Origin: Stomorhina lunata
Taxonomy: Eukaryota > Arthropoda > Insecta > Diptera > Rhiniidae
DNA: 64,000 nt
NCBI GenBank assembly: GCA_933228675.1
Contig: OW121743.1
Location: forward strand, 87,007,268 to 87,071,267
Direction of reading: 5' to 3'
The stretch's first letter is position 1. Every line of letters begins with the position of its first letter. The translations under genes and the position numbers were made by a program. This document shows positions 14,712-50,057 of this stretch, piece after piece. The notes beneath the pieces were generated by a model, which made no database searches, was not told where the DNA came from, and saw only the letters and a program-made list of their open reading frames with translations.

Positions 14712-17700
14712 TAGGAAAAATTTTCTATAAAAATATAACATTTTTAAAAATTTCCTATAAAAAAAGAAAAGTTTTGAAAAATTTCCTATAAAATTAGAAA
14801 ATTTTTTGAATAACTTCCTATAAAAATAAAAAATTTTTGAAAAATTTCCTGTAAAAATAGAAATTTTTTCAAAATTTTCCTATAAAAATAGAAAATTTTT
14901 GAAAAATTTCCTATAAAAATAGAAAATTTAAAAAAAATTTCCTATAAAAATAGTAAATTTTTGAAAAATTTCCTATAAAAATAGAAAATTTTTGACAAAT
15001 TTCGTATAAAAATAGAAAATTTTTGAAAAATTTCCTATAAAAATTGAAAATTTTTGAAAAATTTCCTATAAAAATAGAAAATTTTTGAAAAATTTCCTTT
15101 AAAAATAGAAAATTTTTGAAAATTTTTCTATAAAAATAGAAAATTTTTGAAAATTTTCCTATAAAAATAGAAAATTTTTGAAAAATTTCCTATAAAAATA
15201 TTAAATTTTTGAAAAATTTCCTATAGAAAAAGTAAATTTTTGAAAATTTTCCAATAAAAATAGTATATTTTTGAAAAATTTCCTATAAAGATAGTAAGTT
15301 TTTGAAAAATTTCCTATAAAAATAGTAAATTTTTTAAAAATTTCCTATAAAAATAGTAAATTTTTGCAAAATTTCCTATAAAAATAGTAAATTTTTGAAA
15401 AATTTCCTATAAAAATAGAAAATTTTTGACAAATTTCGTATAAAAATAGAAAATTTTTGAAAAATTTTCTATAAAAATTGAAAATTTTTGAAAAATTTCC
15501 TATAAAAATTGAAAATTTTTGAAAAATTTCCTATAAAAATAGAAAATTTTTGAAAAATTTCCTTTAAAAATAGAAAATTTTTGAAAAATTTCCTATAAAA
15601 ATAGTAAGTTTTTGAAAAATTTCCTATAAAAATAGTAAATTTTTGAAAAATTTCCTATAAAAATAGTAAATTTTTGAAAAATTTCCTATAAAAATAGTAA
15701 ATTTTTGAAAAATTTCCTATAAAAATAGTAAATTTTTGAAAAATTTCCTATAAAAATAGTAAATTTTTTAAAAATTTCCTATAAAAATAGTAAATTTTTT
15801 AAAAATTTCCTATAAAAATAGTAAATTTTTGAAAAATTTACTATAAATATAGAAAAATTTACAAAAATTTACTATAAAAATAGTCAATTTTTGAAAAATT
15901 TCCTATAAAAATAGTATATTTTTGAAAAATTTCCTATAAAAATAGTAAGTCTTTAAAAAATTTCCTATAAAAAAATAAATTTTTAAAAAATTCCTTATAA
16001 AAAAAAGTAAATTTTTGAAAAATTTCCTATAAAAATAGTAAATTTTTGGAAACTTTCCTATAAAAGTAGTAAATTTTTTAAAATTATCCTATAAAAATAA
16101 TAAATTTTTGAAAAATATTCTATAAAAATAGTAAATTTTTAAAAATTTCCTCTAAAAATAGTAAATTATTGAAAAATTTCCTATAAAAAAAGTAAATTTT
16201 TGAAAAATTTCCTATAAAAATAGTATATTTTTGAAAAATTCCTATAAAAATAGTAAATTTTTGAAAAATTTCCTGTAAAAATGTAAATTTTTGAAAAATT
16301 TTCTATAAAAATAATAAATTTTTGAAAAATTTCCTATAAAAATAGTATAAAAGTATTTTTGAAAAATTTGCTATAAAAATAGTAAGTCTTTAAAAAATTT
16401 CCTATAAAAAAATAAATTTTAAAAAAAATCCTTATAAAAAAAAGTAAATTTTTGAAAAATTTCCTATAAAAATAGTAAATTTTTGGAATTTTCCTATAAA
16501 AGTAGTAAATTTTTTAAAATTATCCTATAAAAATAATAAATTTTTGAAAAATATTCTATAAAAATAGTAAATTTTTAAAAATTTCCTCTAAAAATAGTAA
16601 ATTATTGAAAAATTTCCTATAAAAAAAGTAAATTTTTGAAAAATTTCCTATAAAAATAGTATATTTTTGAAAAATTCCTATAAAAATAGTAAATTTTTGA
16701 AAAATTTCCTGTAAAAATGTAAATTTTTGAAAAATTTTCTATAAAAATAATAAATTTTTGAAAAATTTCCTATAAAAATAGTAAATTATTGAAAAATTTC
16801 CTATAAAAATAGAAAATTTTTGAAAAATTTCCTATAAAAATAGTATATTTTTGAAAAATTTCTATAAAAATAGTAAATTTTTAAAAATTTCCTCTAAAAA
16901 TAGTAAATTATTGAAAAATTTCCTATAAAAAAAGTAAATTTTTGAAAAATTTCCTATAAAAATAGTATATTTTTGAAAAATTCCTATAAAAATAGTAAAT
17001 TTTTGAAAAATTTCCTGTAAAAATGTAAATTTTTGAAAAATTTCCTATAAAAATAGTAAATTTTTGGAATTTTCCTATAAAAGTAGTAAATTTTTTAAAA
17101 TTATCCTATAAAAATAATAAATTTTTGAAAAATATTCTATAAAAATAGTAAATTTTTAAAAATTTCCTCTAAAAATAGTAAATTATTGAAAAATTTCCTA
17201 TAAAAAAAGTAAATTTTTGAAAAATTTCCTATAAAAATAGTATATTTTTGAAAAATTCCTATAAAAATAGTAAATTTTTGAAAAATTTCCTGTAAAAATG
17301 TAAATTTTTGAAAAATTTTCTATAAAAATAATAAATTTTTGAAAAATTTCCTATAAAAATAGTAAATTATTGAAAAATTTCCTATAAAAATAGTAAATTT
17401 TTGGAAATTTCCTATAAAAGTAGTAAATTTTTTAAAATTATCCTATAAAAATAATAAATTTTGGAAAAATATTCTATAAAAATAGTAAATTTTTAAAAAT
17501 TTCCTATAAAAATAGTAAATTATTGAAAAATTTCCTATAAAAATAGTAAAATTTTGAAAAATTTCTTATAAAAATAATATATTTTTGAAAAATTCCTATA
17601 AAAATAGTAAATTTTTGAAAAATTTCCTGTAAAAAAAGTAAATTTTTGAAAAATGTTCCTATAAAAATAGTAAATTTTTGAAAAATTTCCTATAAAAATA

Positions 17701-18120
17701 ATAAGTTTTTTAAAAAATTTCCTATAAATATAGTAAATTTTTGAAAAGTTTTCTATAAAAATAGTAAATTTTTGAAAATTTTTCTATAAAAATAGTAAAT
17801 TTTTGAAAAATTTCCTATAAAAATAGTAAATTTTTGAAAAATATAATATAAAAATAGTAAATTTTTGATAAATTTCCTATAAAAATAGTAAATTTTTGAA
17901 AAATTTCCTATAAAAATAGTAAATTTTTGAAAAATTTCCTATAAAAATAGTAAATTTTTGAAAAATTTCCTATAAAAATAGTAAATTTTTTAAAAATTTT
18001 CTATTTTGATAAGAAATTTTTCCTGTAAATTAGAAAATTTTTGAAAAATTTCCTGTAAAAATACAAAAATTTTGAAAAAAAAATTGTTTGAATAAAAATT
18101 TTTAAAAATTTAAAAAAATG
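14712..18120. repeat. 31-bp minisatellite with higher-order duplications (3.4 kb)
   Basis: This is the longest array. Its unit TTTCCTATAAAAATAG + TAAATTTTTGAAAAA differs from its neighbours by a G-to-T change after ATA. From about 15940 to 17600, blocks of 8-14 diverged units are themselves duplicated: the marker AGTAAGTCTTTAAAA occurs at 15944 and 16381, and TTTTGGAA-TTTCC at about 16481, 17062 and 17399. Confidence 0.93.
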
Positions 18121-18989
18121 TTTGACCATTTCTTGAGCTGCCCTTATGACTGCTGGTGCTGATTCATAACCCATTTTATGTAAATTGTGTTTTATACTTA
18201 GTTATTGTATCATTCATCCTCATACTACAAGCACTTCCTCACCGGTTTAAAAAAATTCAAACTTTTCCTACATAAACTTACTGGATTTTTTATTCATTTT
18301 ACTACATTTCACTTCATTTTTCGATGGGTACTATTTATATTTCGGGAACTGGAAACAGAAATGTCCACAGCTTTAACTGTCAATACTATAGCAAAGCTTT
18401 AAATTTGTTTGTGTTTAATTTCACAAAAAATATAAACTTCACATACCAAACTCCTAAGAATTCCCCAAAGGTAGTCCAAAATGGGGTTTTCTGACACAAA
18501 ACATGAACTGATAACACTACTCATTTCATTTTACCCCTCGTACATTGTATACAATCGTTTGTATTGTAAACTTGCAACATTTTGTTTAATGTTTTTTCTG
18601 TTCTTTAGTTTCGCGTTGGCCATAAACAACATAAGAATTTTGTAGTCAAATTTGAACGAGCAAATAATAAATTTTGACCAGTTAAAAAAGTCAAGAAGTA
18701 GAGACGGAAATGTTATAAGAAAATATTTATGAAAAAGATACTCATCATAATCTTTTTTAAGTTTATGATAAATTTGTTTGTATTTTTTGCCATAAATTAT
18801 GAGTGGGAAATGTTAAGGAAAAATGGTTGGTTTGAAATGAAAGGGGTTTATGGTTAGAATTTTAAAGGATGTAGTTTTTGAGTTATTTCAAGATTAAGGA
18901 TGAAGTAATAATAATTTAAAAATGTGGAATTTTTTTTATGAAAAATTAAGTGAAGTTTATTCTTATAAAATGTAAAATATGGAATAAAT
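18121..18989. other. AT-rich intergenic stretch, nothing recognised
   Basis: A 65-codon frame near 18205-18402 shows no recognisable protein. Confidence 0.4.
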
Positions 18990-20305
18990 TATAAAAATAG
19001 AAAGTTTTAAAAAAGTTCCTATAAAAATAGAAAATTTTTGAAAAATTTCCTATAAGAATAGAAAATTTCTGAAAAATTTCCTATAAAAATAGAAAATTTT
19101 TGAAAAATTTCTTATAAAAATAGAAAATTTTTGAAAAATTTCTTATAAAAATAGAAAATTTTTGAAAAATTTCCTATAAAAATAGAAAAATTTTTGAAAA
19201 ATTTCCTATAAAAATAGAAAATTTTTGAAAAATTTCCTATAAATATAGAAAATTTTTTAAAAATTTCCTATAAAAATAGAAAAATTTTTTAAAAATTTCC
19301 TATAAAAATAGAACATTTTTGAAAAATTTCCCAGCAGATTAAAAAATTTTTGAAAATTTTGCAATAAAAATTGAAAAATTTTGAAAAATTTCCTATAAAA
19401 ATAGAAAATTTTTGAAAAATTCGTATCAAATAGACAATTTTTGAAAAATTTTCTATAAAAATACAAAATTTTTTAAAAATTTCCTATAAAAATAGAAAAT
19501 TTTTAAAAAATTTCTTTCAAAAATAGAAAACTTATGAAAAATTTCCCATTAAAATAGAAAATTTTTGAAAAATTTCCTATAAAATAGAAAATTTTTGAAA
19601 TATTTCCTATAAAAATAGAAAATTTTTGAAAAATTTCCTATAAAAATAGAAAATTTTTAAAAAATTTCTTATAAAAATAGAAAATTTTTGAAAAATTTCT
19701 TTTAAAAATAGAAAATATTTGAAAAATTTCTTATAAAAATAGAAAATTTTTGAAAAATTTCCTATAAAAATAGAAAAATTTCCTATAAAAATAGAAAATT
19801 TTTTAAAAATTTCCTATAAATATAGAAAATTTTTTAAAAATTTCCTATAAAAATAGAAAATTTTTGAAAAATTTCCTAGCAAATTAAAAAATAAAATTGA
19901 AAAATTTCTTATAAAAATAGAAAATTTTTGAAAAATTTCCTATAAAAATAGAAAATTTTTGAAAAATTTCTACAAAAATAGAAAATTTTTGAAAAATTTC
20001 TACAAAAATAGAAACTGTTTGAAAAATGTCCTATAAGAATAGAAAATTTTTGAAAAATTTCCTTTGAAATAGAAAATTTTTGAAAAATTTTCTATAAAAG
20101 TAGAAAATTTTTTAAAAATTTCCTATAAAAATAGAAAGTTTCTGAAAAATTTCCTATAAAAATAGAAAATTTCTGAAAAACTTTCTATAAAAATAGAAAA
20201 TTTTGAAAAATTTTCTATAAAAATAGAAAATTTCTGAAAAATTTCCTATAAAAATAGAAAATTTTTGAAAAACTTCTTTTAAAACTAGAAAATTTTTGAA
20301 AAATT
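18990..20305. repeat. 31-bp minisatellite (TTTCCTATAAAAATAG type)
   Basis: Moderately diverged copies in the same orientation as 12255-18120. The array stops sharply at 20305. Confidence 0.93.
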
Positions 20306-31510: not shown

Positions 31511-32766
31511 GTATGGGTTGCCTACTCCTGCCTATAATTCTTCCCCTAGTTTTCTAGAATGTTTCTGTTGGTATAGTTGTTGTTCTGTTTGTAAGCAACC
31601 TTTTTCTCTTAATGTTTTGCTGTAAGAGTAGAGCAACATTTTTCTCTTTATCTACACTCTCTCCCTGTGGCTGTTAACTTCAGATAATCCATTTGTACAA
31701 CGTATCGGTGAGTGTGTTCTTGATCATGTGAGAATGTACTGAAACATGCATGAACTCTTTGTCTACATTCGTAGAAAATACCAGAAATATTATTCTCTAC
31801 TATAAAAGCTTGACGAACTGATGTCGTGGCAGAGTTTTAATTGAGACGCGTAAAAGAGAACAGTGAAACTAAGAATATTTGTAAAGCAATTTTATGAAGT
31901 GTGTTTAAGCGATTAACTCTAAGGTTAATGAAGATATATCTTTGTAAAAACGACATAAAGTGTTTTAATTTTGTTTTCGGTTGTTTGCAAAAAGAATTCC
32001 TTCCACGTTCTTAAAGGAAAAACGTTACAATATTAGGTAGTCTTTAGAGTCTTAGTCTTAGAATAAAAGCGGTATACTCTCTTTTTTATGGGATTTTTCA
32101 AAGCGACCATACAGAAAATCAATATATGGAAGTGCAATATATTTTTATTACAGAGCCTTTGCTTTGAGTGTACAAAAGACAATCGCAACAATTTTTTGCT
32201 AAAACTTTGAAGAAAACTTTAAAATACTTGGATTACGAGTGCAGACAAAAAAAGACAAAACACATAAATTTCTAATGCACTAAGAAATGTTACAATTTTT
32301 TTTTTGTTTTCAGAACAGAACATTATCATATGAGAATTTTAAATAAACAAAAGGAGTATTATATTTCAGCATGAACATGTTATGCATGAACATTCATGCA
32401 AGCACATGTGTAAATGCAGGGGGCAAATATGTTGGAGTCGAAAAGAAAGTGTTCTATATACTATTTAAACCCGTAGGGATCAACTTCAAACATGAAACGA
32501 ATGCAGAAACTGTGACAAAACGGCACAAAACGAATGTAATATTGTATGCATAACGGTTTTTGTTTACACACATACGAGGGTAGTTCAAAAATATGAGCTG
32601 TATAATTATATCGGAGACTCCTTTTTATTTTAATGATACCAAAGTGTTCAGTCTTCCGATGTTATGGAAGGAATACTATAAGAACGTCACTTAACTGAAA
32701 ATGCCAATCAACCGACTATTCTAGTATTTCTATTTCGGTAATAAACATTTTTAATCAAAATGACTT
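31511..32766. other. Intergenic stretch with a possible TATA promoter
   Basis: Apart from the candidate promoter at 31801 there is no gene. A mariner-like end sequence (CGAGGGTAGTTCAAAAATA after a TA) occurs near 32575 but has no partner. Confidence 0.35.
31801..31832 (+). promoter_or_regulatory. Possible TATA-box promoter
   Basis: TATAAAAG (31801-31808) lies 29 bases before CAGAGTTTT, spacing suited to a TATA/initiator pair. Degenerate heat-shock-element-like GAA/TTC modules lie upstream (about 31720-31795). The downstream ~200 bases look like a 5' leader, but no coding exon follows. It could be an orphan promoter or part of an old LTR. Confidence 0.25.
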
Positions 32767-32886
32767 GTGAACGGCAGTGGTATAGCAGGTTAGTCATAAG
32801 CCTAGCATACCAGAGGTCCTCAGTTCGATCCCTGTCCAGACCCATTTGAGAAATAAAAAATCAAAATTTTCAAAAAAAGTGGTTCA
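32767..32886 (+). mobile_element. tRNA-derived SINE, copy 4, 3'-truncated
   Basis: GTGAACGGCAGTGGTATAGC is followed by the A-box, the B-box (AGTTCGATCCC) and the AAAATTTTCAAAAAAAG segment, ending after GGTTCA. The ~200-bp body is missing. It is more diverged than the other three copies and no target duplication is clear. Confidence 0.75.
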
Positions 32887-33154: not shown

Positions 33155-33936
33155 TTTATCAAAAATTTTTCACAAAATTTAAAAATTTCAAAATTTTTTA
33201 TCAAAAATTTTTCTATACAAACATTTTTTTCAAAAATTTTTCTATATAAAATTTTTTTTATCAAACATTTTTCAATAAAAAATTTTTCTATAGAAAATTT
33301 TTTTATCAAAAATTTTTCCATAAAAAATTTTTTTATCAAAAAGTTTTCCATAAAAAATTTTTTTATCAAAAATTTTTCTATACAAAATTTTTTTAACAAA
33401 AAATTTGAAGTTGAAGTAAATTAGAAAATTTTTTATCAAAAATTTTTCTATAGAAAATTGTTTTATCAAAAATTTTTCTATACAAAATTTTTCTACAGAA
33501 ATTTTTTTTATCAAAAATTTATCTATAGAAAATTTTTTTATCAAAAATTTTTCAATAGAAAATTTTTTTATCAAAAATTTATCTATAGAAATTTTTTTTT
33601 TTAATTTTTCTATAGAAATTTTTTTTATTAAAAATTTTTATATAGAAAATATTTTTATCAAAAATTTTTATATAGAAAATATTTTTATCAAAAATTTTTC
33701 TATCAAAAATTTTTCTATAGAAAATTTTTTTATCAAAAATTTTTCTATAGAAAATTTTTTTATCAAAAATTTTTATATAGAAAATTTTTTTATCAAAATT
33801 TTTTCTATAGAAAACTTTTTATAAAAAATTTTTCGATGGAAAATTTTTTTATGAAAAATTTTTCTATAAAAAATTTTTTTATTCAAAATTTTTCTATAGA
33901 AAATTTTTTTATCAAAACTTTGTCTATAGAAAATTT
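33155..33936. repeat. 30-bp minisatellite, left part
   Basis: Units of AAAAATTTTTCTATAG + AAAATTTTTTTATC, here exactly 30 bp, so they stay in frame and create spurious reading frames of about 100 codons with a ten-residue period. The array is interrupted at 33936 by the 570-bp satellite and resumes in the same orientation at 39305. Confidence 0.92.
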
Positions 33937-33996
33937 AGCAGTGTGGAATGCTGCATTTTCTGTCCCGCTACGGACTTCATCAGCACACTGTGTCAC
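33937..33996 (-). ncRNA. Satellite hammerhead, unit 1 (outer stem I missing)
   Basis: The array boundary cuts the outer part of stem I. The inner 7-bp stem I, core, stem II and stem III are present. Confidence 0.6.
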
Positions 33997-34497
33997 CAAC
34001 TGTTAGATGCCAGTAGTTAAGATCATCTATTTAACTGAATTCTTAAGCGAAATTGAAAACGAGAATTATATTAACACTCATTTCCATTTCACCTATGACC
34101 ATATGATCGATTCAGTGAGACGAACTTATCCACCATAGTTTTTTCCTTTATGTTTTTTATTCCTATCCTTTATTAATCTACATTTACTTTGTACTTTAAC
34201 CAACTGTCAGCTGGTAATGAAGACAAAGATTTTTGTTTTGACAAGTTTTGTTTTATTCTTTACGTTAATGCAAATTTTGAATTTAGTATCAACTTGAAAG
34301 AGTTAATGAAAACATGTAAATCGCGGTGCCCATGCAATTTAATTGAAAGAAATTAATTTTAGTTGAACCAGAATTTATGTTGATGGTCGTGGGTTCGAGT
34401 CGGGCTCAGGTTCATGTCATAAATTATTTTTTTAATTTATGATTTTTTTTTTTTTTAAATTAGATGAATAAATTTTTAGGAATACTGAAAAAACTAT

Positions 34498-34566
34498 GTG
34501 ACACTTAGCAGTGTGGAATGCTGCATTTTCTGTCCCGCTACGGACTTCATCAGCACACTGTGTCAC
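34498..34566 (-). ncRNA. Satellite hammerhead, unit 2
   Basis: On the minus strand: outer stem I GTGACA with TGTCAC; inner stem I CAGTGTG with CACACTG; a CTAAG bulge between them; core CTGATGA; stem II GTCC with GGAC; core GAA; stem III AATG-CAG-CATT; and C17, with cleavage predicted before CACACTG. All invariant core residues are present. The one oddity is an A-A mismatch between the core and stem II (positions 10.1/11.1), where G-C is usual; this may slow cleavage. Confidence 0.7.
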
Positions 34567-35067
34567 CAACTGTTAGATGCCAGTAGTTAAGATCATCTAT
34601 TTAACTGAATTCTTAAGCGAAATTGAAAACGAGAATTATATTAACACTCATTTCCATTTCACCTATGACCATATGATCGATTCAGTGAGACGAACTTATC
34701 CACCATAGTTTTTTCCTTTATGTTTTTTATTCCTATCCTTTATTAATCTACATTTACTTTGTACTTTAACCAACTGTCAGCTGGTAATGAAGACAAAGAT
34801 TTTTGTTTTGACAAGTTTTGTTTTATTCTTTACGTTAATGCAAATTTTGAATTTAGTATCAACTTGAAAGAGTTAATGAAAACATGTAAATCGCGGTGCC
34901 CATGCAATTTAATTGAAAGAAATTAATTTTAGTTGAACCAGAATTTATGTTGATGGTCGTGGGTTCGAGTCGGGCTCAGGTTCATGTCATAAATTATTTT
35001 TTTAATTTATGATTTTTTTTTTTTTTAAATTAGATGAATAAATTTTTAGGAATACTGAAAAAACTAT

Positions 35068-35136
35068 GTGACACTTAGCAGTGTGGAATGCTGCATTTTC
35101 TGTCCCGCTACGGACTTCATCAGCACACTGTGTCAC
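35068..35136 (-). ncRNA. Satellite hammerhead, unit 3
   Basis: Identical to the unit 2 motif. Confidence 0.7.
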
Positions 35137-35638
35137 CAACTGTTAGATGCCAGTAGTTAAGATCATCTATTTAACTGAATTCTTAAGCGAAATTGAAAAC
35201 GAGAATTATATTAACACTCATTTCCATTTCACCTATGACCATATGATCGATTCAGTGAGACGAACTTATCCACCATAGTTTTTTCCTTTATGTTTTTTAT
35301 TCCTATCCTTTATTAATCTACATTTACTTTGTACTTTAACCAACTGTCAGCTGGTAATGAAGACAAAGATTTTTGTTTTGACAAGTTTTGTTTTATTCTT
35401 TACGTTAATGCAAATTTTGAATTTAGTATCAACTTGAAAGAGTTAATGAAAACATGTAAATCGCGGTGCCCATGCAATTTAATTGAAAAGAAATTAATTT
35501 TAGTTGAACCAGAATTTATGTTGATGGTCGTGGGTTCGAGTCGGGCTCAGGTTCATGTCATAAATTATTTTTTTAATTTATGATTTTTTTTTTTTTTTAA
35601 TTAGATGAATAAATTTTTAGGAATACTGAAAAAACTAT

Positions 35639-35707
35639 GTGACACTTAGCAGTGTGGAATGCTGCATTTTCTGTCCCGCTACGGACTTCATCAGCACACT
35701 GTGTCAC
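35639..35707 (-). ncRNA. Satellite hammerhead, unit 4
   Basis: Identical to the unit 2 motif. Confidence 0.7.
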
Positions 35708-36206
35708 CAACTGTTAGATGCCAGTAGTTAAGATCATCTATTTAACTGAATTCTTAAGCGAAATTGAAAACGAGAATTATATTAACACTCATTTCCATTT
35801 CACCTATGACCATATGATCGATTCAGTGAGACGAACTTATCCACCATAGTTTTTTCCTTTATGTTTTTTATTCCTATCCTTTATTAATCTACATTTACTT
35901 TGTACTTTAACCAACTGTCAGCTGGTAATGAAGACAAAGATTTTTGTTTTGACAAGTTTTGTTTTATTCTTTACGTTAATGCAAATTTTGAATTTAGTAT
36001 CAACTTGAAAGAGTTAATGAAAACATGTAAATCGCGGTGCCCATGCAATTTAATTGAAAGAAATTAATTTTAGTTGAACCAGAATTTATGTTGATGGTCG
36101 TGGGTTCGAGTCGGGCTCAGGTTCATGTCATAAATTATTTTTTTAATTTATGATTTTTTTTTTTTAAATTAGATGAATAAATTTTTAGGAATACTGAAAA
36201 AACTAT

Positions 36207-36275
36207 GTGACACTTAGCAGTGTGGAATGCTGCATTTTCTGTCCCGCTACGGACTTCATCAGCACACTGTGTCAC
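36207..36275 (-). ncRNA. Satellite hammerhead, unit 5
   Basis: Identical to the unit 2 motif. Confidence 0.7.
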
Positions 36276-36776
36276 CAACTGTTAGATGCCAGTAGTTAAG
36301 ATCATCTATTTAACTGAATTCTTAAGCGAAATTGAAAACGAGAATTATATTAACACTCATTTCCATTTCACCTATGACCATATGATCGATTCAGTGAGAC
36401 GAACTTATCCACCATAGTTTTTTCCTTTATGTTTTTTATTCCTATCCTTTATTAATCTACATTTACTTTGTACTTTAACCAACTGTCAGCTGGTAATGAA
36501 GACAAAGATTTTTGTTTTGACAAGTTTTGTTTTATTCTTTACGTTAATGCAAATTTTGAATTTAGTATCAACTTGAAAGAGTTAATGAAAACATGTAAAT
36601 CGCGGTGCCCATGCAATTTAATTGAAAGAAATTAATTTTAGTTGAACCAGAATTTATGTTGATGGTCGTGGGTTCGAGTCGGGCTCAGGTTCATGTCATA
36701 AATTATTTTTTTAATTTATGATTTTTTTTTTTTTTAAATTAGATGAATAAATTTTTAGGAATACTGAAAAAACTAT

Positions 36777-36845
36777 GTGACACTTAGCAGTGTGGAATGC
36801 TGCATTTTCTGTCCCGCTACGGACTTCATCAGCACACTGTGTCAC
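36777..36845 (-). ncRNA. Satellite hammerhead, unit 6
   Basis: Identical to the unit 2 motif. Confidence 0.7.
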
Positions 36846-37347
36846 CAACTGTTAGATGCCAGTAGTTAAGATCATCTATTTAACTGAATTCTTAAGCGAA
36901 ATTGAAAACGAGAATTATATTAACACTCATTTCCATTTCACCTATGACCATATGATCGATTCAGTGAGACGAACTTATCCACCATAGTTTTTTCCTTTAT
37001 GTTTTTTATTCCTATCCTTTATTAATCTACATTTACTTTGTACTTTAACCAACTGTCAGCTGGTAATGAAGACAAAGATTTTTGTTTTGACAAGTTTTGT
37101 TTTATTCTTTACGTTAATGCAAATTTTGAATTTAGTATCAACTTGAAAGAGTTAATGAAAACATGTAAATCGCGGTGCCCATGCAATTTAATTGAAAAGA
37201 AATTAATTTTAGTTGAACCAGAATTTATGTTGATGGTCGTGGGTTCGAGTCGGGCTCAGGTTCATGTCATAAATTATTTTTTTAATTTATGATTTTTTTT
37301 TTTTTTTAATTAGATGAATAAATTTTTAGGAATACTGAAAAAACTAT

Positions 37348-37416
37348 GTGACACTTAGCAGTGTGGAATGCTGCATTTTCTGTCCCGCTACGGACTTCAT
37401 CAGCACACTGTGTCAC
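37348..37416 (-). ncRNA. Satellite hammerhead, unit 7
   Basis: Identical to the unit 2 motif; it is the last before the inversion. Confidence 0.7.
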
Positions 37417-37942
37417 CAACTGTTAGATGCCAGTAGTTAAGATCATCTATTTAACTGAATTCTTAAGCGAAATTGAAAACGAGAATTATATTAACACTCA
37501 TTTCCATTTCACCTATGACCATATGATCGATTCAGTGAGACGAACTTATCCACCATAGTTTTTTCCTTTATGTTTTTTATTCCTATCCTTTATTAATCTA
37601 CATTTACTTTGTACTTTAACCAACTGTCAGCTGGTAATGAAGACAAAGATTTTTGTTTTGACAAGTTTTGTTTTATTCTTTACGTTAATGCAAATTTTGA
37701 ATTTAGTATCAACTTGAAAGAGTTAATGAAAACATGTAAATCGCGGTGCCCATGCAATTTAATTGAAAGAAATTAATTTTAGTTGAACCAGAATTTATGT
37801 TGATGGTCGTGGGTTCGAGTCGGGCTCAGGTTCATGTCATAAATTATTTTTTTAATTTATGATTTTTTTTTTTTTAAATTAGATGAATAAATTTTTAGGA
37901 ATACTGAAATAGATGATCTTAACTACTGGCATCTAACAGTTG

Positions 37943-38011
37943 GTGACACAGTGTGCTGATGAAGTCCGTAGCGGGACAGAAAATGCAGCATTCCACACTG
38001 CTAAGTGTCAC
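37943..38011 (+). ncRNA. Satellite hammerhead, inverted unit 1
   Basis: The same motif now on the plus strand, so transcripts from either direction across the block contain hammerheads. Confidence 0.7.
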
Positions 38012-38512
38012 ATAGTTTTTTCAGTATTCCTAAAAATTTATTCATCTAATTTAAAAAAAAAAAAAATCATAAATTAAAAAAATAATTTATGACATGAACC
38101 TGAGCCCGACTCGAACCCACGACCATCAACATAAATTCTGGTTCAACTAAAATTAATTTCTTTCAATTAAATTGCATGGGCACCGCGATTTACATGTTTT
38201 CATTAACTCTTTCAAGTTGATACTAAATTCAAAATTTGCATTAACGTAAAGAATAAAACAAAACTTGTCAAAACAAAAATCTTTGTCTTCATTACCAGCT
38301 GACAGTTGGTTAAAGTACAAAGTAAATGTAGATTAATAAAGGATAGGAATAAAAAACATAAAGGAAAAAACTATGGTGGATAAGTTCGTCTCACTGAATC
38401 GATCATATGGTCATAGGTGAAATGGAAATGAGTGTTAATATAATTCTCGTTTTCAATTTCGCTTAAGAATTCAGTTAAATAGATGATCTTAACTACTGGC
38501 ATCTAACAGTTG

Positions 38513-38581
38513 GTGACACAGTGTGCTGATGAAGTCCGTAGCGGGACAGAAAATGCAGCATTCCACACTGCTAAGTGTCAC
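38513..38581 (+). ncRNA. Satellite hammerhead, inverted unit 2
   Basis: Plus-strand copy identical to its neighbour 570 bp upstream, so a plus-strand transcript would release a unit-length RNA between them. Confidence 0.7.
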
Positions 38582-39081
38582 ATAGTTTTTTCAGTATTCC
38601 TAAAAATTTATTCATCTAATTTAAAAAAAAAAAAATCATAAATTAAAAAAATAATTTATGACATGAACCTGAGCCCGACTCGAACCCACGACCATCAACA
38701 TAAATTCTGGTTCAACTAAAATTAATTTCTTTCAATTAAATTGCATGGGCACCGCGATTTACATGTTTTCATTAACTCTTTCAAGTTGATACTAAATTCA
38801 AAATTTGCATTAACGTAAAGAATAAAACAAAACTTGTCAAAACAAAAATCTTTGTCTTCATTACCAGCTGACAGTTGGTTAAAGTACAAAGTAAATGTAG
38901 ATTAATAAAGGATAGGAATAAAAAACATAAAGGAAAAAACTATGGTGGATAAGTTCGTCTCACTGAATCGATCATATGGTCATAGGTGAAATGGAAATGA
39001 GTGTTAATATAATTCTCGTTTTCAATTTCGCTTAAGAATTCAGTTAAATAGATGATCTTAACTACTGGCATCTAACAGTTG

Positions 39082-39150
39082 GTGACACAGTGTGCTGATG
39101 AAGTCCGTAGCGGGACAGAAAATGCAGCATTCCACACTGCTAAGTGTCAC
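39082..39150 (+). ncRNA. Satellite hammerhead, inverted unit 3
   Basis: Plus-strand copy in the last, partial monomer; the hammerhead itself is complete. Confidence 0.7.
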
Positions 39151-39304
39151 ATAGTTTTTTCAGTATTCCTAAAAATTTATTCATCTAATTTAAAAAAAAA
39201 AAAAAATCATAAATTAAAAAAATAATTTATGACATGAACCTGAGCCCGACTCGAACCCACGACCATCAACATAAATTCTGGTTCAACTAAAATTAATTTC
39301 TTTC

Positions 39305-40255
39305 TATAGAAAATTTTTTATCAAAAATTTTCTTTAGAAAATATTTTTATCAAAATGCAATAGAAAATTTTATTATCAAAAATTTTTCTATAGAAAACTT
39401 TTTTATCAAAAATTTTTCTATAGAAAATTTTTTTATCAACGATTTTTCTATAGAAAATTTTTTTATCAAAAATTTTTGTATAGAAAATTTTTATATAGAA
39501 AATTTTTATATCAAAAATTTTGCTATAGAAAATTTTTTTATCAAAAAATTTGAAATTTTTCTATAGAACATTTTTTTATCAAAAATTTTTCTATACAAAA
39601 GTTTTTTTTTAATTTTTCTATAGAAATTATTTTTATCAAAAATTTTTTTATAGAAAATTTTTTTATCAAAAATGTTTCTATAGAAAATTTTTTTATCAAA
39701 AATGTTTCTATAGAAAATTTTTTTTTTCAAAAATTTTCTATAGAAAATTTTTTTATCAAAAATTTTTCTACAGAAAATTTTTCCATCAAAAATTTTTCTA
39801 TAGAAAATATTTTTATCAAAAATTTTTCTATAGAAAATTTTTTTATCAAAAATTTTTCTATAGAAAATTTTTTTATCAAAAATTTTTCTATAGAAAATTT
39901 TTTTATCAAAAATGTTTCTATAGAAAATTTTTTTATCAAAAATGTTTCTATAGAAAATTTTTTTAGCAAAAATTTTTCTATAGAAAATTTTTTTATCAAA
40001 AATTTTTCTATAGAAAATTTTTTTATCAAAAATTTTTCTATAGAAAATTTTTTTATCAAAAATTTTTCTATAGAAAATTTTTTTATCAAAAATTTTTCTA
40101 TAGAAAATTTTTTTATGAAAAAATTTTTAATAGAAAATTTTTTTATGAAAGATTTTTCAATAGAAAATTTTTTTATCAAAAATTTATCTATAGAAAATTT
40201 TTTTTATCAAAAATTTTTCTACAGAAAATTTTTTTATTAATAATGTTTCTAAGGT
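39305..40255. repeat. 30-bp minisatellite, right part
   Basis: Continuation of 33155-33936. Units between about 39780 and 40110 are nearly perfect. The exact 30-bp period gives a 150-codon minus-strand frame with a repeated KKFSIEKFLI pattern, which is a by-product of the repeat and not a gene. Confidence 0.94.
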
Positions 40256-44484: not shown

Positions 44485-45965
44485 TTTCCCATAAAAAAAT
44501 ATCTTTTTCAAAAATTTTTCTATAGAAAAATATTTTTTTCAAAAATTTTTCTATAGAAAAATATTTTTTTCAAAAATTTTTCTATAGAAAAATATTTTTT
44601 TCAAAAATTTTTCTATAGAAAAATATTTTTTTCAAAAATTTTTCTATAGAAAAATATTTTTTTCAAAAATTTTTCTATAGAAAAATATTTTTTTCAAAAA
44701 TTTTCTATAGAAAAATATTTTTTTTAAAAATTTTTCTATAGAAAAATATTTATTTCAAAAATTTTTCTATAAAAAAATATTTTTTTCAAAAATTTTTCCA
44801 TAGAAAAATATTTTTTTCAAATATTTTTCTATATTTTTCTATAGAAAAAAAATATTTTTTTCAAAAATTTTTCTATAGAAAAATATATTTAACGAAAATT
44901 TTTCTATAGAAAAAATATTTTTAACGAAAATTTTTCTATAGAAAAAAATTTTTAAAGAAAATTTTTCTATAGAAAAATATTTTTAACGAAAATTTTTCTA
45001 TAGAAAAATATTTTTAACGAAAATTTTTCTATAGAAAAATATTTTTAACGAAAATTTTTCTATAGAAAAATATTTTTAACGAAAATTTTTCTATAGAAAA
45101 ATATATTTAACGAAAAATTTTCTATAGAAAAATATTTTTAACGAAAAATTTTCTATAGAAAAATATTTTTAACGAAAAATTTTCTATAGAAAAATATTTT
45201 TAACGAAAATTTTTCTATAGAAATATATTTTTAACGAAAATTTTTCTATAGAAAAATATTTTTAACGAAAATTTTTCTATAGTAAAATATTTTTAACGAA
45301 AATTTTTCTATAGAAAAATATTTTTAACGAAAATTTTTCTATAGAAAAATATTTTTAACGAAAATTTTTCTATAGAAAAATATTTTTAACGAAAATTTTT
45401 CTATAGAAAAATATTTTTAACGAAAATTTTTCTATAGAAAAATATTTTTAACGAAAATTTTTCTATAGAAAAATATTTTTAACGAAAATTTTTCTATAGA
45501 AAAATATTTTTAACGAAAATTTTTCTATAGAAAAATATTTTTATCGAAAATTTTTCTATAGAAAAATTTTTTTATCGAAAATTTTTCTATAGAAAAATAT
45601 TTTTTACGAAAATTTTTCTATAGAAAAATATTTTTAACGAAAATTTTTCTATACAAAAATATTTTTAACGAAAATTTTTCTATAGAAAAATATTTTTTAC
45701 GAAAATTTTTCTATAGAAAAATATTTTTAACGAAAATTTTTCTATAGAAAAATATTTTTAACGAAAATTTTTCTATAGAAAAATTTTTTATAAAAAATTT
45801 TTCTATAGAAAAATTTTTTTATCGAAAATTTTTCTATAGAAAAATTTTTTGATCGAAAATTTTTCTATAGAAAAACTTTTTTATCGCAAATTTTTCTATA
45901 GAAAAATTTTTTTATCGAAAATTTGTCTATAGAAAAACTTTTTCTATAGAAAAATTTTTTTATAC
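44485..45965. repeat. 31-bp minisatellite in variant blocks
   Basis: The unit is ATTTTTCTATAGAAAAATA + TTTTTTTCAAAA at the left (44485-44870), switching to TTTTTAACGAAA from about 44880 and TTTTTTATCGAAA at the right end. Each block is internally homogeneous, as expected from unequal exchange. Confidence 0.95.
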
Positions 45966-46160
45966 AGAAAATATTTGATGTCAAACTTTTAATATCGAAA
46001 GCTTACCTATAGAAAGAAAACTTTCATACCGAAAGATTTCCTATAGAAAATATTCGCTATAGAAAGATTTCCTATAGAAAACATTGACTATCAAAAGCTT
46101 TCCTATAGAAAACGTTCGCTATCGAAAGCTTTTCTTAAAAAAAAAATTTACTATAGAAAA
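45966..46160. repeat. Decayed right shoulder of minisatellite
   Basis: Degenerate units (GAAAGCTTTCCTATAGAAAA) resemble those at 44100-44484. Confidence 0.55.
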
Positions 46161-46454
46161 CTTTTTATTATTATGTTTAAATATGCCAGTTAGGTCTTTC
46201 CTCAATGAGACTAACGATATGTATGTATTTCCATCTATCTTCATCTTTTTTACTACATCTAACGATGGTTTTTTGTTCATTAAAAGTAAATTTTCCCTTG
46301 TATTATTTTTTACTTCACTTGTTATTTTCTCGTAAAATCTCATAAATAGTTCTCTATAAATTTTATTTCATTTTCCCTGAGGCGTTGAAAAGGCGATAAT
46401 TTAATTTACTTTTGTGGGTTTTTAAGTGAAATCAACTGTTGGGTGAGGGGAAAT
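46161..46454. other. Short AT-rich spacer
   Basis: Nothing recognised. Confidence 0.4.
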
Positions 46455-48350
46455 TTCTATTGACAAATTTTCGATAAAAAAATCTTTCTATAAAAAATTT
46501 TTCGATAAAAAAATTTTTCTATAGAAAAATTTTCGATAAAAAAATTTTTCTATAGAAAAATTTTCGATAAAAAAATTTTTCTATAGAAACATTTTTTTAT
46601 CGGTAAAAAAAATTTTTCTATAGAAAAATTTTCGATAAAAAAATTTTTCTATAGAAAAATTTTCGATAAAAAAATTTTTCTATAGAAAAATTTTCGATAA
46701 AAAAATTTTTCTATAGAAAAATTTTTCTATAGAGAAATTTTCGATAAAAAAATTTTTCTATAGAAAAATTTTCGATAAAAAAATTTTTCTATAGAAAAAT
46801 TTTCGATAAAAAATTTTTCTATAGAAAAATTTTCGATAGAAAAATTTTTCTATAGAAAAATTTTCGATAGAAAAATTTTTCTATAGAAAAATTTTCGATA
46901 AAAAAATTTTTCTATAGAAAAATTTTCGATTAAAAAATTTTTCTATAGAAAAGTTTTCGATAAAAAAATTTTTCTATAGAAAAATTTTCGATAAAAAAGT
47001 TTTACTATAGAAAAATTTTCGATAAAAAAATTTTTCTATAGAAAAATTTTCGATAGAAAAATTTTTCTATAGAAAAATTTTCGATAGAAAAATTTTTCTA
47101 TAGAAAAATTTTCGATAGAAAAATTTTTCTATAGAAAAATTTTCGATAAAAAAATTTTCGATAGAAAAATTTTCGATAGAAAAATTTTCGATAGAAAAAT
47201 TTTCGATAGAAAAATTTTCGATAGAAAAATTTTCGATAGAATAATTTTTCTATAGAAAAATTTTCGATTGAATAATTTTTCTATAGAAAAATTTTCGATA
47301 GAAAAATTTTTCTATAGAAAAATTTTCAATAAAAAATTAAGAGTACTTACCACAAAGAAAAATTTTCGATAGAAAAATTTTTCTATAGAAAAATTTTCGA
47401 TAGAAAAATATTTCTATAGAAAAATATTTCTATAGAAAAATTTTCAATAGAAAAAATTTTCTATGGAAAAATTTTCGATAGAAAAATTTTTCTATGGAAA
47501 AATTTTCGATAGAAAAATTTTTCTATGGAAAAATTTTCGATAGAAAAATTTTTCTATGGAAAAATTTTCGATAGAAAAATTTTTCTATAGAAAAATTTTC
47601 GATTGAAAAATTTTTCTATAGAAAAATTTTCGATTGAAAAATTTTTCTATAGAAAAATTTTCGATTGAAAAATTTTTCTATAGAAAAATTTTCGATAGAA
47701 AAATTTTTCTATAGAAAAATTTTCGATAGAAAAATTTTTCTATAGAAAAATTTTCGATAGAAAAATTTTTCTATAGAAAAATTTTCGATAGAAAAATCTT
47801 TCTATAGAAAAATTTTCGATAGAAAAATTTTTCTATAGAAAAATTTTCGATAGAAAAATTTTTCTATAGAAAAATTTTCGATAGAAAAATTTTTCTATAG
47901 AAAAATTTTCGATAGAAAAATATTTCTATAGAAAACTTTTCGATAGAAAAATTTTTCTATAGAAAAATTTTCGATAGAAAAATTTTTCTATAGAAAAATT
48001 TTCGATAGAAAAATTTTTCTATAGAAAAATTTTCGATAGAAAAATTTTTCTATAGAAAAATTTTCGATAGCAAAATTTTTCTATAGAAAAATTTTCGATA
48101 GAAAAATTTTTTTATAGAAAAATTTTCGATAGAAAAATTTTCGATAGAAAAATTTTCGATAGAAAAATTTTCGATAGAAAAATTTTCGATAGAAAAATTT
48201 TCGATAGAAAAATTTTCGATAGAAAAATTTTCGATAGAAAAATTTTCGATAGAATAATTTTTCTATAGAAAAATTTTCGATAGAATAATTTTTCTATACA
48301 AAAATTTTAAATAAAAAAATTTTTCTATAGAAAAATTTTAAATAAAAAAT
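46455..48350. repeat. 31-bp minisatellite (CGATAG/CTATAG type) with 15-bp sub-blocks
   Basis: Units of AAAAATTTTCGATAG + AAAAATTTTTCTATAG, the same family as 6643-7847. At about 47145-47240 and 48115-48250 only the first half is repeated, giving a pure 15-bp array. The flank AAGAGTACTTACCACAA appears inside the array near 47340 and again at its right end near 48351. Confidence 0.96.
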
Positions 48351-49467
48351 TAAGAGTACTTACCACAATGTATTAAGTTACGAATTTTTAGATAACTTAC
48401 TTATGGATGCGTTCGTAATATTTTGACTAAGTACAAATAACTCTTATTTTTCACCCACCCAATATATAAAATTAGTTCAATAAATTTCACACCCCAAATA
48501 TTTATACACAATTTTCGTTTTTGGTGTCTGTGGCTTTTGTGCGAATCTATGTGAGTAATAATAATATTAGTATTTTATATTGGAAAGCTCGTGGGCGAGT
48601 AAAAGCGCGAATGTATTTAAAATGTAATATTTATGTCTGAAACGTCTCCTTAGCCATGGCAGGTACTTGTACCTTTCAGGGTTTAGGGTGTAAAATATGA
48701 GAAACTAAATAACTAGAGGCATTTTAATGTTAACATGATAATCGTGCTGTAAATTTAGAAATTGAAAGTACAAATACCAAATATCGCTACTAAAGATAAG
48801 TGCATTTATAAGCAAAGGATATCTTAACCTTAAATGTTAAATAAAATTCTCAATAATTTAGAAGACCGATTAAAGGGCGGGTGAAATAAAAAGTTGCAAT
48901 ATAGACTTATATTAAATTTAATTTATATAGTAGACGAAGGGCAATTTATAAAAAAAAAATAAAATTTATTTTATTTGTTTTAATGAAATATTTTTTATGA
49001 CTCCAAGGCAATGTAATGGAATTTAAGAGGATTTATTTTTCGAAATTTTTCATAAGTAGTTTTTATGTGTGATTTTTACTTTGTTTTTTATTTTAAACTT
49101 TTATTTTAAACTTTTAATTTCAATTTAATTGATATTTTTTAACTTTCCAAAAAATGCAGGGCATACATTTTGACTTGAATTGAAATTAAAGAGATTTTGT
49201 TGTAGCCCAGGAATGCGGACGGTCACTTCTAGTTTAATATAAACAAATAAAATTAAAGCTAACCTAAAATCAACTACTGAATTAGTACCAATTTTTGGCG
49301 ATTTTAAACCAATGTGAGTCATTAATAATCAAAAATTTATTAAACGTAAAGAAAGTTTTGTCACATACTTTTAGGAGGCTATATAAAAAATTGTTTAAAA
49401 TCAAATTAAATTAAATCTATGGACGAGATTCCACTTAGGGTTAGGTTCAATATTCTTGTCTTCTCTA
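48351..49467. other. AT-rich intergenic stretch, nothing recognised
   Basis: No gene or repeat is supported beyond the short array flank at the left edge. Confidence 0.4.
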
Positions 49468-49479
49468 AAGGATATACTA

Positions 49480-49756
49480 TATATTTATAATTCCCCGACA
49501 ACATTCCATTTGGAACAAGGGGTACTTCTCTCATTGAAAGGGACCTACGTTTTAACGCCGGCTCCGAACGGCAAATGCATTAGTTAGAGAAGTTTTACAT
49601 AGCCTAATACTCAATAACCAGTGGCTAGCTGAGTTATGAGGTGAACCGCCGCTTTTTTTGAAAATTTATTTTTTTCAAGTGAGTCTGGCCAGGGATCGAA
49701 CTTAGGCCTCTGGTATGCTAGGCGGATGACTAACCTGCTTTACCACGGCGATTCAC
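49480..49756 (-). mobile_element. tRNA-derived SINE, copy 2
   Basis: A full-length copy with an internal deletion of about 40 bp in the body. It is bounded by a perfect 12-bp target duplication, AAGGATATACTA, at 49468-49479 and 49757-49768. Confidence 0.92.
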
Positions 49757-49768
49757 AAGGATATACTA

Positions 49769-50057
49769 GAGCTTCTTCAGTAACCAGAACCTTCCTGTTC
49801 AAGACCAGAAGATAAAAGTAAAATGTAATAACAAGAGGTTTCTGAACCTAAAGAAACTCTTAGAATAATAAATGTGGTGCTGATACAGGAATCCTAGGTT
49901 CAACAACACGACTTGAGCTAAAAAAAATTAAATATTAGAATGTCGGAATCATTTTTCAGCAACGGTGAAGGTTTGTACATGAAGTTGACGAGGAATCCCT
50001 TCTGATGACTTCAACTTCACAACTTTTTCGATAACGGATATTGATGAAGATTATACA
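49769..50057. other. Spacer between two SINEs
   Basis: Unique-looking DNA; nothing recognised. Confidence 0.4.

Follow-up and report, generated by a model that had tools for sequence, protein, structure and literature searches.

A dispersed hammerhead-bearing tandem repeat of the fly Stomorhina lunata, probably a retrozyme moved by Penelope-like elements

A stretch of 64,000 nucleotides of the Stomorhina lunata genome (the window) contains an array of tandem repeat units, each of which encodes a hammerhead ribozyme (HHR) motif. The best explanation of this repeat, to which we assign a probability of roughly 0.7, is that it is a non-autonomous, non-coding retrozyme of the animal type, moved in trans by the Penelope-like elements (PLEs) of the fly. 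A first-pass annotation had called it a satellite. It behaves instead like the animal retrozymes, as a retroelement interspersed in the genome, since its copies are dispersed, their ends are fixed, they are flanked by target-site duplications, and each array carries a single variant of the unit.

The repeat period in the window array is 568–571 bp, in agreement with the ~570 bp reported earlier. The parts of the array are as follows.

33935–39304, no strand: whole insertion, two inverted arms of the 568–571 bp unit, about 9.6 units; left edge at 33935/33937
33925–33936, plus strand: probable target-site duplication TATAGAAAATTT, left copy, identified by eye
33937–37909, minus strand: left arm, about 7 units, hammerhead sense on the minus strand; ends outward at unit position ~95, which is neither of the usual start sites
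33937–33996, minus strand: hammerhead copy, outer stem I lost at the array end
34494–34566, minus strand: hammerhead copy
35064–35136, minus strand: hammerhead copy
35635–35707, minus strand: hammerhead copy
36203–36275, minus strand: hammerhead copy
36773–36845, minus strand: hammerhead copy
37344–37416, minus strand: hammerhead copy
37907–37912, no strand: head-to-head centre junction 37909/37910, with AAA common to both sides
37910–39304, plus strand: right arm, about 2.5 units, hammerhead sense on the plus strand; ends outward in ..TTTCTTTC, the usual long end
37943–38015, plus strand: hammerhead copy
38480–39048, plus strand: complete unit, used as the query for searches
38513–38585, plus strand: hammerhead copy, with predicted cleavage at 38563/38564
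38660–38737, plus strand: putative reverse-transcription start module of the query unit
39082–39154, plus strand: hammerhead copy
39305–39316, plus strand: probable target-site duplication TATAGAAAATTT, right copy, identified by eye

Seven HHR copies lie on the minus strand (33937–37909) and three on the plus strand (37910–39304). The inverted two-arm layout is absent from the first-pass annotation. That annotation had placed the repeat at 33937–39150; its left edge stands (33935/33937), whereas on the right the array reaches 39304. The duplication TATAGAAAATTT sits in an AT repeat, where chance could produce the same match. The fly host proposed earlier is borne out by the best named SLX1 homologues, which come from Cochliomyia, Stomoxys, Musca and Haematobia. 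The sole ATG frame of at least 50 aa that touches the array is 56 aa long and spans its left edge, and the unit holds no long frame, reverse transcriptase or GIY-YIG endonuclease. A B-box-like stretch of the start module was rejected as a tRNA candidate: ARAGORN found no tRNA within the window.

The hammerhead in the fly repeat is real and above chance; 20,000 shuffled versions of the unit that kept its dinucleotide composition, scanned as circles on both strands with any bases allowed at the foot, never reproduced its architecture. The core (CTGATGA, stem II, GAAA, stem III, stem I) is invariant across the ten window copies, with the residues in the order that had been described for all ten. 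Stem III consists of 4 bp with a CAG loop in each copy, and stem I of 7 bp, a 5-nt bulge and 6 bp more, except in the left-edge copy (CTGATGA from 33983, minus strand), where the array stops short of the outer 6 bp. C3UGANGA9, G12AAA15.1, U16.1 and H17 follow one another in order among three stems, and the motif is of type I, with stems II and III closed by hairpins and stem I open. Variable sites number 2/73 in the HHR and 33/489 in the remainder of the unit, a difference that is not significant (p 0.30).

The foot of stem II (10.1–11.1) is unpaired. The A·A mismatch noticed there in the first reading was found in 10/10 window copies and is a family trait, being present in 112/112 full units; five otherwise exact cores genome-wide carry another base at 10.1 (one G, four T). 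Because a natural U·U has been described at this foot (PMC3088659), we regard the A·A-footed motif as a variant rather than as excluded from type I. The same source states that U·U cleaves better than any other mispair at this position, from which it follows that A·A should cleave worse; as a putative ribozyme, the A·A-footed hammerhead is probably slow. In predicted folding, a lone motif favours a misfold (−23.2 versus −20.1 kcal/mol), and for two copies together the best predicted structure is a double hammerhead (−53.0 versus 2 x −23.2 kcal/mol alone).

The covariance-model search that had been proposed as a check on the hammerhead gave no Rfam hammerhead match, which is one half of what the first-pass annotation would have counted as refutation. 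No hammerhead family matched the 64-kb window at the gathering threshold, or positions 33900–39300 with E up to 10; the 86-base motif returned no HHR family and only two snoRNA matches near E 7–9; one PLE fragment and one viral contig gave no HHR family at its cut-off; and a genome search with RF00163 gave no matches, its controls being likewise silent. This silence is weak evidence, because an A·A-footed HHR of the viral contig also reaches only 15.3 bits (cut-off 48.5). Pattern scans of viral contigs for A·A-footed HHRs yielded one locus in one scan and at least 120 in another. A stem filter was passed by two of the 121 listed viral loci, one convincing by eye (L051) and one with the bare minimum for stems II and III (L086).

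Across the genome, 1,651 HHR copies (at most 3 mismatches) are scattered. The first 100 matches listed, all exact and on one contig, fall into 67 loci, 50 of which hold a single HHR; unit length among the copies measured is 559–582 nt. This distribution bears on the reading that the repeat is a classical satellite, shaped by unequal exchange and local homogenisation, with the hammerhead as a relic. That the arrays are tandem, AT-rich and homogeneous would agree with such an origin, but the dispersal, the predominance of single-HHR loci among those first 100 copies, the fixed ends, the target duplications and the constant polarity make it scarcely credible.

Insertion structure was determined in 42 clusters, among which young copies are over-represented because the clusters were drawn from the best matches. 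Matches shorter than 32 nt or below 85% identity, and clusters shorter than 150 nt, were dropped before counting, and an isolated long-end fragment in L011 was left out. Two inverted arms were found in 34 of the 42, with the HHR strand directed outward in 34/34 and the opposite arrangement in none; the remaining eight are single-armed, and two of these, both in L037, are probably parts of one array interrupted by about 1.2 kb. Neighbouring copies among the first 100 listed on the same contig were oriented '-+' in 16 cases and '+-' in one, and that lone pair falls between two adjoining insertions of L017. In all 24 clusters with readable ends, one arm begins at ~246 and the other at ~208 of the unit; the start sites are thus ~38 nt apart, so that one end is long and the other short. 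All 24 are flanked by target duplications of 11–15 bp; among mismatched flank pairs, 17% reach 10 bp. The window's cluster is one of 10 two-arm clusters (of 34) that have one end elsewhere, and these 10, one end of which shows neither motif, were omitted from the end and duplication test. Centre junctions, counted with a doubled unit, share at least 3 bases in 15/34, as against 7% for random joins.

At most loci examined the arms are inverted and built of tandem units, a layout that a foldback-type DNA transposon with a chance or passenger hammerhead would also present. A comparable case is Tetris of Drosophila virilis, a foldback element linked to tandem repeats (PMC4079207); it is a DNA transposon, unlike the retrozyme that we propose. 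We consider a foldback origin highly improbable. The outer ends are ~38 nt apart and never equal in the 24 readable cases, duplication length is not constant (11–15), eight of the 42 clusters are one-armed (with the proviso on L037 given above), the inner ends are scattered over the unit, and every array went through one unit.

The PLEs of the same genome allow the insertion scars to be compared directly. Among 150 scored matches to the PLE endonuclease, eleven lie in open frames of 830–864 aa. Eleven PLE pairs were considered, of which two (L191/L192 and L197/L198) were not readable, one arm being truncated before the module. The nine readable pairs each have one long and one short end (assigned by eye), with duplications of 11–17 bp and starts 33–48 nt apart; the duplication search was run with the ends confined, since AT repeats confuse it, and start positions are accurate to within a few bases. 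In the PLEs, a 5-bp stem is conserved, and the long-end start lies 19–26 nt past its 3′ strand. The module of the query unit could form a corresponding stem, GAACC (38665–38669) with GGTTC (38709–38713), with the short end starting after 38696 and the long end after 38733; in the retrozyme, the starts are 38 nt apart and the long-end start is 20 nt past the 3′ strand of the stem. The occurrence of the same insertion scars in the retrozyme and in the fly's own PLEs supports the suspected link between the two.

L1 twin priming also yields head-to-head inversions with target duplications, and one could envision the same retrozyme being mobilised not by a PLE but by a LINE-type non-LTR retrotransposon. 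LINEs are indeed named beside PLEs as possible mobilisers (PMC7229834). We think this improbable, given that both starts are fixed, ~38 nt apart in 24/24 readable clusters as in the 9/9 readable PLE pairs, and that internal starts without target homology are called unique to PLEs (PMC11167929).

At the sequence level, the start modules of the retrozyme and of the PLEs show no clear homology, which counts against the proposed role of PLEs. A model built from PLE modules only gave the retrozyme module a score of 15.2 bits, with an E of 1.5 over the whole 64-kb window, listed seven of the ten module copies of the window and ranked another place, 2647–2718, higher (15.9 bits). Restricted to 1,401 bases, it placed the retrozyme as the top match (E 0.033). 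Over nine further loci, it listed one copy in L014, two copies in L018 and none in L009. When three PLE families were withheld from the model, two were recovered (22.4 and 16.3 bits) and one was missed. In the pairwise comparison, one of nine PLE modules beat the shuffles (2 of 1,000), the score summed over the nine was not above shuffles (187 of 1,000), and the longer segment from the HHR to the end was significant against the PLEs for 0/10. A 16-nt resemblance that was convincing by eye in one family was rejected as evidence of homology, as such comparisons failed against shuffles except in that one-of-nine case. A second PLE module alignment was made without L200, L201 and L203, the longer loops of which were misaligned.

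Units within an array are nearly identical. Differences average 0.18 within arrays (203 unit pairs, maximum 2) and 4.96 between arrays, and units of opposite arms in the same array differ by 0.16 (86 pairs). Each of the 52 variants shared with other arrays is carried by all units of its own array, none being mixed; among private variants, nine are fixed in every unit and 10 segregate, eight of these in one unit. The fixation of variants in each array therefore implies a one-unit bottleneck per insertion. The arms continue through and beyond the predicted HHR cut site, and the inner ends are scattered over the unit, with 3/68 within 8 nt of that site, about the chance level; hence, a linear monomer that stopped at the cut site was not the template.

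We propose the following sequence of events for a PLE-driven retrozyme. Multimeric RNA would be transcribed outward from an arm, and the type I hammerhead, probably acting as a dimer of adjoining units, would cut it to unit length, after which we infer that the monomer is closed into a circle. The PLE enzyme would make a staggered break of about 12 bp in AT-rich DNA, and its two 3′ ends would prime reverse transcription at two fixed internal RNA sites ~38 nt apart, one per side; the ends at these sites are observed, and priming there would account for them. Each cDNA would be made by repeated passage round the circle, or by copying of a uniform multimer, which would yield the tandem arms; the inner ends of the arms would then be joined, frequently where a few bases are common to both.

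In a variant of this scheme, the template is a long linear multimer rather than a circle and the hammerhead has no role in insertion. In vitro, the Anolis PLE still inserts normally when its ribozyme is mutated, and it uses mainly unprocessed RNA as substrate (PMC11167929); a source array that was already uniform would likewise yield uniform daughters. The lack of any mixed array among the 52 recurrent variants requires a one-unit bottleneck at some step, and we regard the linear variant as rather unlikely, though worth serious consideration.

That PLEs drive the animal retrozymes has been suggested on the grounds that the two kinds of element co-occur, are both tandem and both bear type I HHRs (PMC7229834, PMC7761336). 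The Anolis PLE enzyme cuts and extends both strands, with a preference for AT-rich DNA, and has two internal start sites, which bound a genomic 'tail' (PMC11167929). Like the fly repeat, PLEs have head-to-head inverted ends with an optional 30–40 nt tail on one, short target duplications (8–10 bp in rotifers), AT-rich targets and an HHR upstream of the start module (PMC3846280, PMC11167929). They differ in that the fly unit has no reverse transcriptase or endonuclease, its HHR has a stem III whereas PLE HHRs are minimal (PMC3846280, PMC11167929), and its start-module sequence is not clearly homologous to theirs.

With its tandem units each holding one type I HHR, its lack of coding capacity and its dispersed insertions with target duplications, the fly repeat to this extent conforms to the metazoan retrozymes. 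The non-LTR retrozymes of metazoans (Cervera and de la Pena 2020, PMC7229834) share with it the type I HHR, short tandem repeats, low GC, target duplications of >4 bp and coexistence with PLEs, and axolotl retrozyme HHRs have a weak stem III and act as dimers, as is predicted for the fly. The fly differs in unit length (559–582 nt, versus genomic repeats of 150–450 bp and circRNAs of ~170–400 nt), in its A·A foot (U·U in axolotl HHR_Amex2) and in its head-to-head two-arm insertions with two fixed starts, which go unmentioned for metazoan retrozymes in the available part of PMC7229834. By their descriptions, Dolichopoda pDo500 and the newt and Schistosoma repeats likewise have an HHR per tandem unit (PMC2837043, PMC7229834), and the repeat of another dipteran, the mosquito Aedes aegypti, has a putative HHR drawn as a dimer (PMC3088659). 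The first-pass annotation knew of no description of a fly satellite with this sequence. HHR repeats as such have precedents among insects: a putative one is named for that mosquito (PMC3088659) and insects are among the carriers of retrozyme-like repeats (PMC7229834). None of the papers listed in our literature search concerned an HHR repeat in a higher fly.

In the Stomorhina lunata genome, 1,651 HHR copies exist beside PLEs with long open frames, and the scars of the two can be compared site by site. It is thereby possible to test what enzyme mobilises retrozymes, whether a circle serves as the template and why both kinds of element keep a hammerhead. We hold it an even bet that circular retrozyme RNA is rolling-circle copied by the PLE enzyme on both sides of one staggered break from two fixed internal sites; each array would then record two copyings of one circle, and the hammerhead 'satellites' of animals may generally be the frozen products of this reaction.

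The window holds an array of the retrozyme, a non-coding element with one hammerhead ribozyme (HHR) per unit, and AT-rich repeats of about 15/31 bp (AAAATTTTTCTATAGAAA-like), which form large arrays in blocks over much of the window (6643-48351).

Features from the repeat analysis of the window
about 33935 to 39304, two strands: retrozyme array, 568-571 bp unit
14715-20305, strand not given: AT-rich repeat block (example)
44511-48351, strand not given: AT-rich repeat block (example)

The first-pass annotation had claimed, from the sequence alone, a fly satellite encoding a hammerhead in every monomer of about 570 bp. The hammerhead was borne out: all ten copies in the array (10/10) carry the core CTGATGA-AGTCC-GTAGCG-GGACA-GAAA-ATG-CAG-CATTC, and the arrangement did not arise on either strand in any of 20,000 shuffled units with preserved dinucleotides (stem minima 4, 4 and 6 bp). 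Stem I has a flanking 7 bp, then a 5-nt bulge and 6 bp more; in the leftmost copy, the outer part of this stem is missing. The covariance-model check proposed by that annotation turned out differently, as an Rfam search of the window, the array and the motif found no hammerhead family at the array, a silence that is consistent with the unusual A·A foot of stem II. Conservation of the HHR showed no measurable excess over the remaining unit, and the only ATG frame of at least 50 aa that touches the array has 56 aa and spans its left edge. The satellite part of the claim was not upheld, given that the copies are dispersed. A pattern search of the 728-Mb genome with up to 3 mismatches found 1,651 HHR cores, versus 0 for the reversed pattern. 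The first 100 copies listed, which are all exact and all come from contig C1, make up 67 loci, 50 of which hold a single HHR; scaling from these 100 copies, we estimate about 1,100 retrozyme loci genome-wide.

The architecture of the insertions was compared in 42 clusters, namely the window's and those in 39 further loci taken from the best matches. Locus L037 contributes two of these clusters, which probably derive from a single array interrupted by about 1.2 kb of other sequence (L037:3983-5200), perhaps a nested insertion; 7 nt of the unit occur on either side of the interruption. Two arms, the inverted tandem halves of one insertion, were present in 34/42 clusters, and the HHR strand ran outward from the centre in 34/34 and the opposite way in none. 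Among the first 100 copies listed on C1, 16 neighbouring pairs were of the outward type versus one of the other kind, which sits between two adjacent insertions of L017. Outer-end motifs were recognisable at both ends in 24 clusters. In each of these, one end is long and finishes in ..TTTCTTTC at unit position 246, and the other is short and finishes in ..GACCATC at position 208, both to within a few bases; the order was long-short in 13 and short-long in 11, and two alike were never seen. Target duplications of 11-15 bp flank all 24; a match of 10 bp also arises in 17% of randomly paired flanks, owing to the similarity of the AT-rich targets. One outer end had neither usual motif in 10/34 two-arm clusters (window 33937, about 10 nt past the predicted hammerhead cut site, and loci L009, L010, L016, L032, L035, L036, L038, L039 and L047); such ends may stem from additional start sites, from subsequent loss or from mutation of the motifs. 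The inner ends of the 34 two-arm clusters are spread over the unit, and the arms share at least 3 bases at 15/34 joins, versus 7% for random joins, with 1-18 extra bases at 9/34.

Full units within one array differ by a mean of 0.18 substitutions (203 pairs, maximum 2) and those from opposite arms of one array by 0.16 (86 pairs), whereas units from different arrays differ by 4.96 (6,013 pairs). Among the 22 arrays with at least two full units, every variant also present in other arrays (52/52) was fixed within its own array; among private variants, 9 were fixed and 10 segregated, 8 of the latter in a single unit. Because the arrays are uniform and recurring variants are always fixed, we infer that each array passed through one unit, for which a circular RNA template would be a simple account. 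A linear multimer would serve as well if the array it came from was already uniform, with the one-unit step then required at an earlier stage. A linear monomer ending at the HHR cut was rejected as the template, since the arms extend through the predicted cut site and the inner ends come within 8 nt of it in just 3/68 cases. If the template is a circle, then the HHR may serve only in making it, by analogy with the Anolis Penelope-like element (PLE), whose ribozyme mutants still insert in vitro (PMC11167929).

Two sequences emerged from a GIY-YIG search: SLX1, with its best named homologues in Cochliomyia, Stomoxys, Musca and Haematobia, and a putative Penelope-like endonuclease fragment, whose motifs we take to be those of Penelope. 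Used as a query, the fragment gave 150 scored matches from several families, often adjoining on opposite strands, and 11 of the 150 lie in open frames of 830-864 aa. The PLE sequences compared are mainly 3′ parts, most of whose 3′ ends, as read from the sequences, carry a minimal HHR-like motif. Inverted-end pairs were readable in 9/11 cases; in each, a long end stands opposite a short one at an offset of 33-48 nt, and the target duplication measures 11-17 bp (9 bp is attained by 17% of mismatched pairs). Such ends match the inverted, tailed ends of PLEs (PMC3846280), and their offset corresponds to the 'tail' that the Anolis PLE enzyme produces in vitro by two internal starts (PMC11167929). 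At L031:3330-3464, a Penelope fragment starts with a perfect 61-nt inverted repeat with a 13-nt spacer, which may have arisen by self-priming or by a switch of arms.

In the start module, the putative region where reverse transcription begins, a 5-bp stem is paired in 13/13 aligned PLE modules, with compensated changes at two pairs, both of them in a single sequence. Relative to the 3′ strand of the stem, short starts lie 9-17 nt before and long starts 19-26 nt after; the retrozyme counterpart is a GAACC/GGTTC stem with starts 13 before and 20 after, 38 apart. The geometry agrees between the two; common descent is not proven by sequence. Over 1.4 kb, the top match of a covariance model built on the 13 PLE modules was the retrozyme (E 0.033), in the correct position and on the correct strand; over the whole window, the retrozyme reached E 1.5, with 7/10 module copies listed and another place higher. 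The best match of this model in the window (15.9 bits, E 1) lies at 2647-2718 on the minus strand and is not part of the array. Retrozyme modules scored 15.1-17.4 bits where found, and of three PLE families withheld from the model, two scored 22.4 and 16.3 bits and the third had no match. Against shuffles, 1/9 families stood out when PLE modules were compared with the retrozyme, and 0/10 did for a longer segment. On the strand opposite the hammerhead, the start module at 38670-38695 reads GTGGGTTCGAGTCGGGC, which is close to the tRNA B box consensus; ARAGORN found no tRNA in the window.

The A-A mismatch at the foot of stem II, also pointed out in the first-pass annotation, holds throughout, with both bases A in 112/112 full units. 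Genome-wide, another base stands at 10.1 in five otherwise exact cores (G once, T four times), and 11.1 is unchanged in all five. On both counts, the A·A foot is not recent decay. Natural U·U feet exist, and U·U gives more cleavage than any other mispair at this position (PMC3088659), so that cleavage by the A·A-footed HHR is expected to be slow. By in silico folding, a misfold of the single motif is favoured by 3.1 kcal/mol, and a pair of motifs folds together into a double hammerhead in which a stem III of 5 + 5 bp is common to both, 6.6 kcal/mol better than two monomers. In this predicted monomer misfold and dimer preference, the retrozyme HHR resembles those of newt and axolotl, which are poor as monomers and cut in multimers (PMC7229834). 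An HHR with an A·A foot, under the Rfam cut-off, is also present in L051, an IMG/VR viral contig (2240-2400); a script gave 4 bp for stem II, 8 for stem I and 3 for stem III, and by eye stem III goes on past a small interruption.

The AT-rich repeat seems to be a target common to the retrozyme and the PLEs, since CTATAG occurs within 200 bp of 29/42 retrozyme clusters and many PLE ends sit in similar DNA. The Anolis PLE enzyme cuts both strands in AT-rich DNA (PMC11167929). Elsewhere in the window, sequences resembling CCTCTGGTATGCTAGGC..ATGACTAACCTGCT lie at about 32740-32823 and, the other way round, at about 49690-49780; they may be copies of a short interspersed repeat.

The array belongs to the metazoan non-LTR retrozymes as characterised in PMC7229834, whose genomic repeats are 150-450 bp; the fly unit is longer. 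As far as the literature surveyed, in part, shows, four things are new: a retrozyme family in a higher fly, a unit above 150-450 bp, an A·A foot throughout the family, and insertions of two arms whose two fixed starts match those of the host PLEs. PLEs have been proposed as retrozyme engines from HHRs in both, tandem copies and co-occurrence (PMC7229834, PMC7761336), and the PLEs of this fly are likely the engine that moves its retrozyme.
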